A stretch of 64,000 nucleotides of DNA from Rugalucina vietnamica (Eukaryota; Mollusca; Bivalvia; Lucinida; Lucinidae), in contig OZ024880.1 of NCBI GenBank assembly GCA_964017185.1, positions 47,877,071 through 47,941,070 of the forward strand, given 5' to 3'. Below, piece after piece: positions 50,301 through 59,300 of this stretch. The notes beneath the pieces are model-generated. The model did not search any database. It was not told the DNA's origin and was given only the letters and a program-made list of their open reading frames with translations. Each line of letters starts with the position of its first letter. Positions within the stretch are counted from its first letter, which is position 1. The position numbers and the translations under genes were made by a program.

Positions 50301-53300
50301 TAAAATTTGGCTTTGATTGGCCAAGCAGTTTCAGAGAAGAAGATGTTTGAATATTATGGTAATATACATGCATATTGCCCCGGTGTGGGGGCATATGAGC
50401 CCCTGGGGTCACTTGTTTTTCAGAATTATTTATATTTAGTGCTGTTGTTCATTTCATGCAAAATAAACAGTTTCCCCCATTCAAATGCATAGGCGACCTA
50501 TGTTGACCTTGCTGTACAATAGGTCAAGGTCATCACAGGGTCATGACTTATATATTTCACTACTTGAGTCATCAATGCTTCATGCAAGATTTCGTTGAAA
50601 TCGGTCGACCAGTTCAGGAGAAGAAGATTTTGAAGGGTTTAAACATATATGCGCATGGCGGCCATCTTGGTTATGTAACCTGGATTATTAGCTCACCTGA
50701 GCCAAAGGTTCACAGGTGAGCTTATAGTATAGTGGTCGAGCCGGTGTCCGTGCGTCGTCCGTCGTCCGTCGTCGTCGTCAACATTTTCAAACAACTTCTC
50801 CTCTGAAGCTGCTAGGCCGAATCTTTTCATATTTCACATATAGCATCAACTGGTGGGGGGGAACGAATATTTGTGTTTTTTATTTCGATCGGATAAGTAC
50901 TCTGGTTGTTATGGCAACTTGAAGTTTCCATTGACTTGTATGGAGAAAAAGTGGAAATTGGCATTTTCCGTTGTCAGGCTGTGGATATTTGAATTTTGTT
51001 TTTACATAAATGTTTATTGAGTAGTCCTTCACGTTTAAGGCAACTTTTGTAAAAATCACTTTATTCATTTTGTTGCTATAGCAACATAAATGGTAAATTT
51101 TCGAAAAAAAAAATCAAAAATCTTCTTCTCAGAAGCCGTATGGGGGATGAAGCTGAAATTTAACATACATGCTTATGACATTAGCCTGTACAAAGATTGT
51201 GTTTTTATTGTCTTTGTCCAACTATTTTGGTTGCTATGGTAACTTGAAGTTTCCATTGACTTATAAGGCAAAATGTGGAAATTTGCAATTTTTGCCGTTT
51301 CATTGAGGATATTGAAATTTTGTTTTTACATAAAAGTTTATTGAGTAGTCCTCCCCGTTTTAGGCAAGTTTTGTCAAAATCGCTTTATTCGTTTGGTTGC
51401 TATAAAAACGTAAAGGGTAATTTTTCGAAAAAATATTCAAAAATTTTCTTCTCAGAAGCTGTTAAGCGGAAGAAGCTGAAACTTTGCATACATGCTTATG
51501 ATATTAGCAACTACATATTTTTTTGTTTTTATTGTCCTTGTCCCACTACTTTGGTTGCTATTGCAACTTAAAGTTTCCATTGACTTATAAGACGAAAAGT
51601 GTAAAATTGCATTTTTTTTAAAACTATTGCAGCCTGAGACCTGAAAAGTGGTAGATGCAAACAACTAAAGGAGTAGATGAATATATTTGATAAATTTAGG
51701 CCAAGGTCATCTCTTGACCTTGAAGGGTCTGTCATCCATACACACTTTTCAAAGATCTTCTTCTCTAAAACCGCTTGGCCAATCAAAGTGAAATTTTATG
51801 TGAAGCATCCCTGGGTAGTGGGGACGAAAATTTGATTGCGAAATCTGGGTCACATGACCAAAATGTTCGCCACGCCCATAAATAGTAAAAAACACTCAAA
51901 AATCTTCTCAAGAACGGGCATGCCGATTTTCACGAAACTTGGTATGTAGCATTTGGAACTGCAGCGCATCGTAGTATGATCAAATAATGACCCTAGGATG
52001 ACCTTGACCTATTTTACGTCAAGGTCAATTTTGGAAACATAGGCTTTTACATGGGAAAATGTGAAAAATATGATTTTTATGAAATCTATTGCAGCCTGAG
52101 ACCTGAAAAGTGGTAGATGCAAAACAACTGATGAAAATATGTGATTAATTTAGGTCAAGGTCATCTCTTGACCTTGGCCGATCTGTCGTGTATACACACT
52201 TTTCAAAGATCTTCTTCTCTGAAACCGCATGACCAATCAAACTGAAATTTTATGTGGAGCATCCATGGGTAGGGGTAACGATAGTTTGATCCCGAAATCT
52301 AGGTCACATGACCAAGATGGCCGCCACGCCCATATATTGTAAAACCACTCAACAATCTTCTTCTCCAGAACCGGCAGGCCGATTTTCATGAAACTTGGTA
52401 TGTAGCATTTGGGACTCCAGTCCATTATAGTTTGATAAAATGATGACCCTAGGGTGACCTTGTCCTATTTTACGGCAAGGTCAATTTTGGAAACATAGGC
52501 TTTTACATGGGAAAAAGTGAAAACAATGGATATTTTGTAAACTAAATGCAGCCTGAGACCTGAAAAGCGGTAGATGCAAACAACTAATAGAGTAGATGAA
52601 GGTATGTGATTAATTTAGGTCAAGGTCAATTTTGGAAACATAGGCAAACATGGAAACATGGCAAAAAGTGACAACTAGGTCTCAGGTAAGCATTTACATA
52701 CGGTGGTATCTTTAGGACACGCAATAATTTTTTTAAGAAAAATATATGTCGTGCAAACGGGATATGAATTCGTTCAAACGGGATATTAATCCGTGCAAAC
52801 GAGATATTAATTCGTACAAACGACATATTAATTCGAGCAAACGGGATATGAATTCGTGCAAACGGTATATTAATCCGTGCAAACGATATATTAATTCGAG
52901 CAAACGGGATATCAATTCGTTCAAACAGGATATAAATCCGTGCAAACGAGTTATTAATTCGTACAAACGACATATTAATTCATCACCTAATTCGAGCAAA
53001 CGGGATACGAATTCGTGCAAACGGTTTATTAATCCGTACAAACGGTTTATTAATCCTTACAAACGATATATTAATTCGAACAAACGGGATATGAATTCGT
53101 GCAAATGGTTAATTAATCCGTGCAAACGACATATCAATTCGAGCAAACGGGATATGAATTCGTTCAAACGGGATGTTAATCCGTGCAAACGAGATATTAA
53201 ATCGTACAAACGACATATTAATTCGAACAAACGGGATATGAATTCGTGCAAACGGTTAATTAATCCGTGCAAACGACATATCAATTCGAGCAAACGGGAT

Positions 53301-56300: not shown

Positions 56301-59300
56301 ATTTATATAAGTGCCCTGTTAAAATTTGAGCCTCTTTAATTTCGAATACTGAATGGCCACGTTTAGATCAATAAGATCTGAGCGGGATGGGGACAGGGGT
56401 CGGGGTATTTATTTATTTATTTATTTATTTATTTATTTTGAGCCGCGTTAAAAGAATAACATTATTGTGGATTCCGACCACTTCCACCGGGCTGTTCATC
56501 CACAACAGTTGATTAGATGCTAGAAATGCTTGATTAATAAAGTAAAAGTATTGTTCTAAATGTATTTGAGTAGCGAAAACAAAGGAGATATGATGAGATG
56601 AGCCACTGCATGAGAAGACCAAAACTTTGCATATACGCGAAAACAAAGATGCAGCTCAGCTTCGCGGTTACAGATCAGATTCGCGGTAACCGCGAAGCTG
56701 ATCAGCGCCTTTGTTTTCCCTACACGGATAGTACAATTCCTCTACTTTCTAAATCCGAACTTTTAAGCTTCTTAGCTTTATTCTGTCGTTGTACATCCCA
56801 TTGTGTCGGACCTGGTCGGAGAGCCAGATTGTTGGTTTTGTCACACAAAGGCTCATATGAATATTCATGAATATATAATACATTTTGAAGATCATAATTC
56901 GTAAAATCAACATTCTATAGGTCATGGAGTAAAACTATTACGGTGGTAACTATTGTATGAGCTAACAATGAAAATTCACCTTCACCAAAAGGCCAACCGA
57001 TCACATTACGAAAATTTGCCCATGCAATATACAGAGAATTTTTTCAGTTGTAAAAAAAAAATAAATTTCACCAGAAAAATATTGATATTTTTCTTATTTT
57101 TGCTAACATGTACCCATAATCTATGTTTTGGAGTGGGGTTTGATGGGGTACACATTTCACGGACATGTTTTCCTGATGGTTTGTTTTCCCGACATAGATG
57201 TCGTTTGCACGGATTAATAATCCGTTTGCACGGATTAATAAACCGTTTAAACGAATTGATATCCCGTTTGCTCGAATTAATATATCGTTTGCACGGATTA
57301 ATATACCGTTTGCACGAATTCATATCCCGTTTGCTCGAATTAATATGTCGTTTGTACGAATTAATATCTCGTTTGCACGGATTAATATCCCGTTTGAACG
57401 AATTGATATCCCGTTTGCTCGAATTAATATATCGTTTGCACGGATTAATATACCGTTTGCACGAATTCATATCCCGTTTCCTCGAATTAATATGTCGTTT
57501 GTACGAATTAATATTTCGTTTGCACGGATTAATATCCCATTTGAACGAATTGATATCCCGTTTGCTCGAATTAATATATCGTTTGCACGAGTTAATAAAC
57601 CGTTTGCACGAATTCATATCCCGTTTGCTCGAATTAATCTGTCGTTTGTACGAATTAATATATCGTTTGCACGGATTAATATCCCGTTTGAACGAATTGA
57701 TATCCCGTTTGCTCAAATTAATATATCGTTTGCACGGATTAATAAACCGTTTGCACGAATTCATATCCCGTTTGCTCGAATTAATATGTCGTTTGTACGA
57801 ATTAATATCTCGTTTGCACGGATTAATATCCCGTTTGAACGAATTGATATCCCGTTTGCACGACATATAATTTTCTTAAAAAAATTATTGCGTGTCCTAA
57901 AGATACCACCGTATTTACAGGACCAATGATACTATGGTAACTATTGCAGCCATAGACCTGAAACATTACCAAGATGGCCGTCATACCCATTTAGGGTAAA
58001 AAAAAAAGAAAAACATTCACTTTGTCCAGTGACTGTACTTGTTGACTCTCAGGTGAGCGATCGTTGCCCTTGGGCTACTTGTTTATATATACATTGGTAA
58101 CCCCATCCTATACATGTAGATGCTTCTCATAAAAGTTGGCTTTGATTGGCCTAGCGGTTTCAGAGGAGAAGATCTATGAAATTGTGGACGAACGACGGAC
58201 GACGACGACGGACGCCGGAGCATGACCATCCTTTAAGCTCACCTTGTGAGCTTTCGGCTCAGGAGAGCTAAAACTGAGAGAGATTTCCTCTATTGGTAAA
58301 TGAATATCTAACGTAAGAGAATGTAATGTCAAAATAACTAACCTTCTGTTTTGTCCAATCTGCAAACAAAGAATATATTGAAAATGAATTAGAAGAAAAA
58401 AAGCATAAACAGCTTATGTTCTGAATCATACGCATTACACAAAACAACATGGGTTACATTCTAGAAGCATTCGTTGCTGTAACATTTGATGGAATATACA
58501 ACCGAGTGTCCAATAATTATCTAACCAATGTTGCAGTATAGACAAAAATAACAAAATAAAGAACATTATAAATAAATTAAAAAAATCATGCCCCTCACGT
58601 GCAATACAATTTGGAGCTGACATTATAAATACAATAACACAAAAATAAGTTTATGTTCATACGATTTGATCATATGCACACATTCAACGAAATACAGCGC
58701 TACATACTTGCACGCTGCAACTCCATCCGTAACAACACATGAATAACCTGACTGGCATGCTCCTTCAACTGTTTCAAAAACTTTACATTTATATCCCGTT
58801 GCAGTGTTTGGTGTATAAGTTTCTGAAAATAAAAATGTAGGGTATAAATACGTTCAGAAGTCTTACACTCTATCCTGTGCGATAATTTTTGTTTGTTTCT
58901 ATCCATTCGTGTTAATGTAGCTGCCATTTTGTTTTATCTTAATCGAGCTTCTTCGCATGAACATATGGTAATTTGTAATGTCATTTATGTATTTCTATAT
59001 CATAATTACGTAGGTGATCCAAGAAGTAATGCGAACGCATCTCTATTTTAGTAACCTTTGTATCCTTTGGAGATACAATTGTTTAATTCGACATGTTTTA
59101 CATGCGTGCATGTGCGGTAACTGGGTGAAATACGTTCGGATGACGGATAACGATATTATGATATCTTTATACATGTATGTCGACCCGCAGTCGACATGCA
59201 CGTGAAATTTGCCGAAAATGCCGGTTTTGCTTAGGGTACGGGGAAATATCTTGAGCTTTGATGTTCACAATTATCATTTATATACAAAACTATCATATTT

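Follow-up and report, generated by a model that had tools for sequence, protein, structure and literature searches.

Two arrays of a 21-bp satellite face each other in inverted orientation in the genome of the lucinid bivalve Rugalucina vietnamica (assembly GCA_964017185.1, contig OZ024880.1), within the stretch of 64,000 nucleotides at positions 47,877,071 to 47,941,070 that was analysed here and is called the window. The question raised by this locus is whether the two arrays are the arms of one transposon, as the original prediction had proposed, and, if so, to which kind of transposon they belong and what it does with the satellite. We show that a single whole unit of 5215 bp is inserted at window positions 52699-57913 with a 6-bp target duplication, TTTACA, at both borders; its membership of a family, the anatomy of its arms and the failure to find coding capacity in it are likewise established. 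The element is most probably a non-autonomous cut-and-paste DNA transposon with the build of a foldback element, belonging to the IS3EU/GingerRoot superfamily.

Transposition of the two-armed unit

The inverted ends, the arrays and the TTTACA duplication all lie where they had been predicted. The left tip of the terminal inverted repeat (TIR), TACGGTGGTATCTTTAGGACACGCA... (52699-52749, plus strand), runs for 51 bp ahead of the first repeat unit, and the right tip (57863-57913, minus strand) is its inverted copy, the outermost 50 bases of both ends being identical at 49 positions. Immediately outside them stand the left (52693-52698) and the right (57914-57919) copy of TTTACA, which do not differ.

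A search of the genome with the tip for inverted pairs with matching 6-bp flanks, as the original prediction had suggested, revealed a family. In the 1.09 Gb searched (47 contigs), the 25-base tip had 87 matches at up to three mismatches, a few of them tips of a sister family described below, against none for the reversed control, which excludes chance. Of these tips, 70 form 35 inward-facing (plus-then-minus) pairs of neighbours within 40 kb on the same contig, on many contigs, while only two neighbouring pairs within that distance are oriented otherwise, both minus-minus. The pairs span 0.8 to 36 kb, 20 of the 35 measuring 4.9-6.6 kb, and looser tip patterns supplied a partner for three more of the 87 (C11:51987930, C4:45510800, C2:79117618). 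Where both flanks were read, an exact 6-bp duplication borders 19 of 25 pairs, compared with none of 600 mismatched combinations in which left flanks were set against the right flanks of other copies (five of the 600 agree at five of six positions). Longer exact duplications, from 7 up to 12 bp, occur in none of the 25. The ends read TACGG..CCGTA in the window and in 23 of the 25 pairs read, the exceptions being C1:89762198 (at its right end) and C3:59141359 (GATGG..CCATC).

Empty sites complete this picture. One copy (locus L012) is inserted within another, in its inner arm, and its joined flanks, with one duplication removed, align continuously over the junction with 13 of the 14 sequences compared, at 92-99.5%: the window, the uninterrupted inner arm of the same copy and 11 others. 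L009 and L010 are the two halves of one copy; L010 matches, and L009 is the sole miss. For the window element itself, the predicted empty site is real but short: the joined flanks align with a paralogous repeat on the plus strand at 44293-44333, where TTTACA occurs once (44309-44314), at 87.8% over 41 bases across the junction (E 6e-8), and the site in the nested copy is far stronger. Because of the inward pairs, the 19 exact duplications among 25 and the uninterrupted counterpart of the nested site, we conclude that the two-armed unit transposes whole and that the two distant arrays are, as proposed, arms of one insertion.

Structurally, the window element has the foldback build. Its left array (52750-53937, plus strand) contains 56 in-register 21-bp units and one 12-bp insertion, and the right array (57191-57862, minus strand) 32 in-register units without indels; Tandem Repeats Finder delimits the 21-bp-based arrays as 52749-53919 and 57202-57863, and in the latter and part of the former it also detects a period of 147 bp (7 x 21). 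Aligned in inverted orientation, the two arms are 89.3% identical over 730 bp. Further in than the arrays, the arms contain a second inverted domain, absent from the original prediction, and each arm therefore extends beyond its array: the left-arm inner domain (about 53952-54467, plus strand), with an (AAAT)n run at its end, has pieces 84-86% complementary to the right-arm inner domain (56404-57003, minus strand). The middle domain (54468-56403) holds an (ATCT)n microsatellite and short palindromes (55797-55871), and in the whole element the stop-to-stop frames clear of the arrays reach at most 115 amino acids; coding capacity was not found. Long TIRs, a tandem-repeat outer domain, an inner domain and a non-coding middle are thus all present. 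The main aligned pieces of the core are 86-96% alike across copies. The middle domains of 15 copies (L023 left out for its length) diverge by a mean of 3.3% (0.65-4.65%), and by 0.8-2.4% from the column majority; judged by this divergence, the family spread over some time and not in one very recent burst.

Two observations concern the surroundings of individual copies. The pair at C3:59141343-59150365 (L059, L060), with tips GATGG..CCATC, has 16-base flanks that are inverted copies of each other and agrees at none of six duplication positions; the pair therefore lies inside a larger palindrome and looks like the palindromic duplicate of a half-element. In the window, the element adjoins tandem repeats of about 324 bp and of about 460 bp (50898-52698), and its left flank is 85% like sequence about 460 bp further left.

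The 21-bp arrays

How the arrays are built was surveyed in 28 arms with 1201 units, 259 of them distinct; a unit had to match a consensus at 12 positions or more, a threshold that favours finding constant positions. The first unit starts at position 51 or 52 of the TIR in all of these arms. Within the unit, positions 1-2 (CG), 5-10 (CAAACG), 14-16 (TAT) and 18-20 (AAT) each carry at least 1.69 bits, and, with counts judged by eye, the two constant CpG pairs show C-to-T or G-to-A changes about as often as other positions are changed. Seven unit types recur in the order ABCDEFG, forming a higher-order repeat of 147 bp. Arms are 10 to 73 units long, apart from one interrupted arm with 3. In 12 of the 28 arms the number of units is four above a multiple of seven, where 4 such arms would be expected, and in another 8 it is three above; gains and losses of seven-unit blocks thus seem to be frequent. 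At the inner ends, one arm closes with ..AFFC and the other with ..EFC plus one unit (in the window, the right arm with ..AFFC and the left with ..EFCC). This held in 12 of 12 scorable copies, those whose two arrays both extend to the inner end; L019, L025 and C8:44426719 could not be scored. The two arms are therefore distinct lineages with a common outer higher-order repeat, and not fresh copies of each other.

Their location speaks to a further proposal, that the element is a vehicle spreading satellite DNA. A 42-mer of two adjoining units occurs at 429 places in the genome at up to two mismatches, against none in the control. The 100 places listed are all exact and on contigs C1 to C11; of these, 97 have a tip no more than 3 kb away, and of the three others one is inside an interrupted element, one 25 kb from a tip and one isolated. 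Arrays outside the element thus account for at most 3 of the 100 listed of 429 places, as counted in the assembly. The satellite is part of the element, and it has not visibly seeded free arrays in the assembly, from which long free arrays could be missing. The proposal holds only in the sense that the satellite rides inside a mobile unit.

A sister family, with tips GGACATTCA, bears diverged 21-bp arrays at four loci (L029, at C4:45506150-45510950, and L030, L031 and L032), with 84-bp and other higher periods. A transposase frame was not seen at these four loci, inspected by eye. The 21-bp frame is kept there even though the units have diverged.

Such constancy might mean that the arrays work. 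As two helical turns per unit, they could be phased binding sites for a transposase or a host protein, with the register maintained by selection, a suggestion that is compatible with an IS3EU-like foldback element and that we put forward tentatively, thinking it possible but not likely. It would account for the fixed start of the first unit in the 28 arms, for the nearly invariant CG, CAAACG, TAT and AAT across the 1201 units, and for the retention of the 21-bp frame in the sister family. It would also account for the contrast between arrays and core: the arrays of 30 arms have 18 out-of-register gaps against 884 substitutions from the unit types, six of the gaps being a 12-bp gap at one place and therefore probably a single event, and in the core, gap openings number 142 and substitutions 667. 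These two ratios were not measured alike, since array changes were counted relative to the unit types and core changes relative to the window copy (with ratios of 0.12 to 0.41 in individual core segments). Moreover, an array of 41-bp units elsewhere in the genome (L043, L049) has 0-1% indels and one of 169-bp units 1%, whereas other arrays with units of 20, 32 and 35 bp have 5-6% and some 21-bp arrays themselves 2-6%. Near-absence of indels is thus neither peculiar to the 21-bp arrays nor common to all of them, and homogenisation alone may explain the register. That arms of 10 to 73 units, and even an interrupted one with 3, all exist also speaks against a working array. One stretch of the seven-unit repeat comes within 3 edits of the CENP-B box, a likeness equalled by 1 of 2000 column shuffles; the comparison is post hoc and a lead only. 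The fuller version of this idea, in which the ordered seven-type array gives an IS3EU-type foldback lineage a phased landing strip, be it for a CENP-B-like host protein or for the lineage's own transposase, the higher-order structure of the array is selected and the family with diverged units is the sister of this lineage, we consider rather unlikely. A view of the arrays as passive passengers agrees with the description of foldback arms in Tetris, whose arrays vary by unit duplication (PMC4079207).

Superfamily and the search for a transposase

The assignment to the IS3EU superfamily follows from the agreement of the TACGG..CCGTA ends and 6-bp duplications with those reported for it. IS3EU families are reported to have TA..TA ends and usually 6-bp duplications (PMC10045372), and fungal IS3EU elements TIRs longer than 30 bp ending in TAYGG..CCRTA (PMC12730594); the present family shares the TA..TA termini, the TACGG..CCGTA ends, a TIR above 30 bp and the 6-bp target duplication. 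The original prediction knew of no described family with such ends and such a duplication. IS3EU has both, and what stands of that claim is that no IS3EU element with satellite arms was found described in those parts of the literature that were searched, Repbase lying outside the search. We infer the superfamily from two features only, the ends and the length of the duplication, and since the defining transposase was not found, we speak with good confidence of IS3EU-like ends and duplication and not of a proven superfamily member.

We also infer that mobilisation proceeds in trans and by a cut-and-paste mode. The TACGGTGGTATC tips would be bound by a DDE transposase acting in trans, which would cut out the whole two-armed unit, and insertion through a 6-bp staggered cut would, upon repair, leave the 6-bp duplication. 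The 21-bp arrays, the outer domain of the arms, change in length mainly by whole units, often in seven-unit blocks, as unequal exchange or slippage predicts, and would be carried along at each jump.

The original prediction had recommended looking for a longer relative with a transposase, and none was found between tips; the large copies read, on C16 and C8, contain nested insertions rather than a transposase. On C16, a copy of 13.6 kb, of which the entire sequence was read, carries an unrelated insert whose frames, judged by eye, look like those of a long interspersed nuclear element (zinc knuckles, the start of an endonuclease). In the 22.8-kb copy on C8 (L047, L048; C8:44426600-44449700; about 19.3 kb read), the left array is interrupted by a large insert that seems to be tandem, a 25-bp feature recurring 3.3 kb apart. 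The rva_4 integrase genes were considered as another possible source. Four loci with rva_4 genes were taken with more flank, and the Pfam label of all four scanned proteins was rva_4; within the stretch read, none was bounded by inverted TAYGG ends and a 6-bp duplication.

Several results weigh against the family being IS3EU-like elements that transpose as whole units. Six of the 25 pairs lack an exact duplication (agreeing at 5, 4, 3, 1, 1 and 0 of 6 positions), and the count covers 25 of the 35 pairs, those with both flanks read, and leaves ten. The only complete sister pair read is without an exact duplication as well (3 of 6), and 14 of the 87 tips have no partner even under the looser patterns. 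None of 134 matches to the rva_4 integrase (PF24764; 150 of 242 candidates scored) and none of 139 to the rve_3 integrase (150 of 1874 scored) fell between tips, when their positions and the tip-to-tip intervals were compared by eye. More generally, no transposase was found between tips, with most interiors of large copies outside the reading or the gene scan: pair interiors of 19.9, 14.3, 13.7, 12.5, 9.2 and 9.0 kb lay outside the reading, and about 9 kb of the 36.1-kb pair on C2 and most of the 9.8-kb pair on C12 were read with no gene scan.

The missing transposase would also suit a foldback element from a different superfamily (Mutator-like, hAT6 or another) whose ends resemble those of IS3EU by chance, and hAT families with 6-bp duplications are on record. 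We nonetheless judge such an origin improbable, given that the duplications are exact at 6 bp in most pairs and that none of the 25 fits the 8-10 bp of a Tetris-type element or any other length from 7 to 12 bp, and that the ends are those reported for fungal IS3EU. The idea that two unrelated satellite arrays happen to face each other, or that the assembly is at fault, can claim the unpaired tips and nothing else, and is refuted by 35 inward pairs on many contigs, their exact duplications and the nested empty site.

Some further structures came to light around the integrase genes. L044 and L050 have in common a 4.4-kb unit, 99.5% alike, with a 428-amino-acid rva_4 frame in L044; inverted ends and a target duplication were not seen in it. 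At C3:1762000-1782200 (L051, L052), two 5-kb inverted copies stand about 10 kb apart, 99.8% alike, with inverted rva_4 integrase matches (417-amino-acid open frames) between them, and therefore form a palindrome of more than 20 kb end to end, its middle and ends lying outside the reading; their outer parts have repeats spaced roughly 400 bp. In the related L043 and L049, a 41-bp array lies beyond the rva_4 gene. A second inverted rva_4 pair is found at C3:40272126 and 40283686. Elsewhere in the window (4776-4874), a perfect (CA)31 is directly followed by an imperfect (CG) run.

Comparison with known systems

Long inverted arms with an outer part of short tandem repeats are known from the FB elements of Drosophila and the TU elements of the sea urchin, which differ from the present family in unit length and in their 8-9 bp duplications. 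That elements with tandem-repeat arms exist, as the original prediction stated, is borne out by Tetris of Drosophila virilis. In its description (PMC4079207), Tetris has tandem repeats in the outer TIR, an inner TIR domain and a non-coding middle, its arrays vary in copy number, and an autonomous copy was not found, all as here. It differs in its repeats of about 220 bp, its duplications of 8-10 bp and its ascription to Mutator, and, unlike the satellite of the present family, Tetris repeats did seed satellite arrays. In the Pacific oyster, the Cg_HINE Helentrons are likewise non-autonomous and carry satellite-like arrays through the genome, but they are Helentrons and hold the array centrally rather than in inverted arms (PMC7492417).

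A link between IS3EU and satellites is already in print: two satellites of the oyster, CgiSat35 with 690 bp and CgiSat47 with 129 bp, are listed under DNA/IS3EU (PMC8268682), and the beetle satellite TCAST10 partly resembles IS3EU-1_TC (PMC5844308). The oyster list also includes CgiSat43, a satellite of 21 bp for which no mobile element is given, a comparison by listed length only. In the literature searched, that paper alone mentions both IS3EU and foldback, and the latter word appears in it once, in the reference to Tetris (PMC8268682).

Foldback elements are mostly ascribed to Mutator, and if the present family is an IS3EU-like foldback, satellite arms arise in a transposase lineage other than Mutator. 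With dozens of insertions, arms of varying length and a recurring order of seven types, the family is also a natural series for testing how higher-order satellites are built up and kept, and this series lies within a transposing unit whose ends are known and for which there is an exact empty site. From IS3EU/GingerRoot as described in the passages seen, for which satellite arms are not reported, it differs both in these arms and in the lack of copies found with a transposase. Tandem-repeat foldbacks were already known; what appears to be new here is the occurrence of IS3EU-like ends on a foldback with 21-bp satellite arms.

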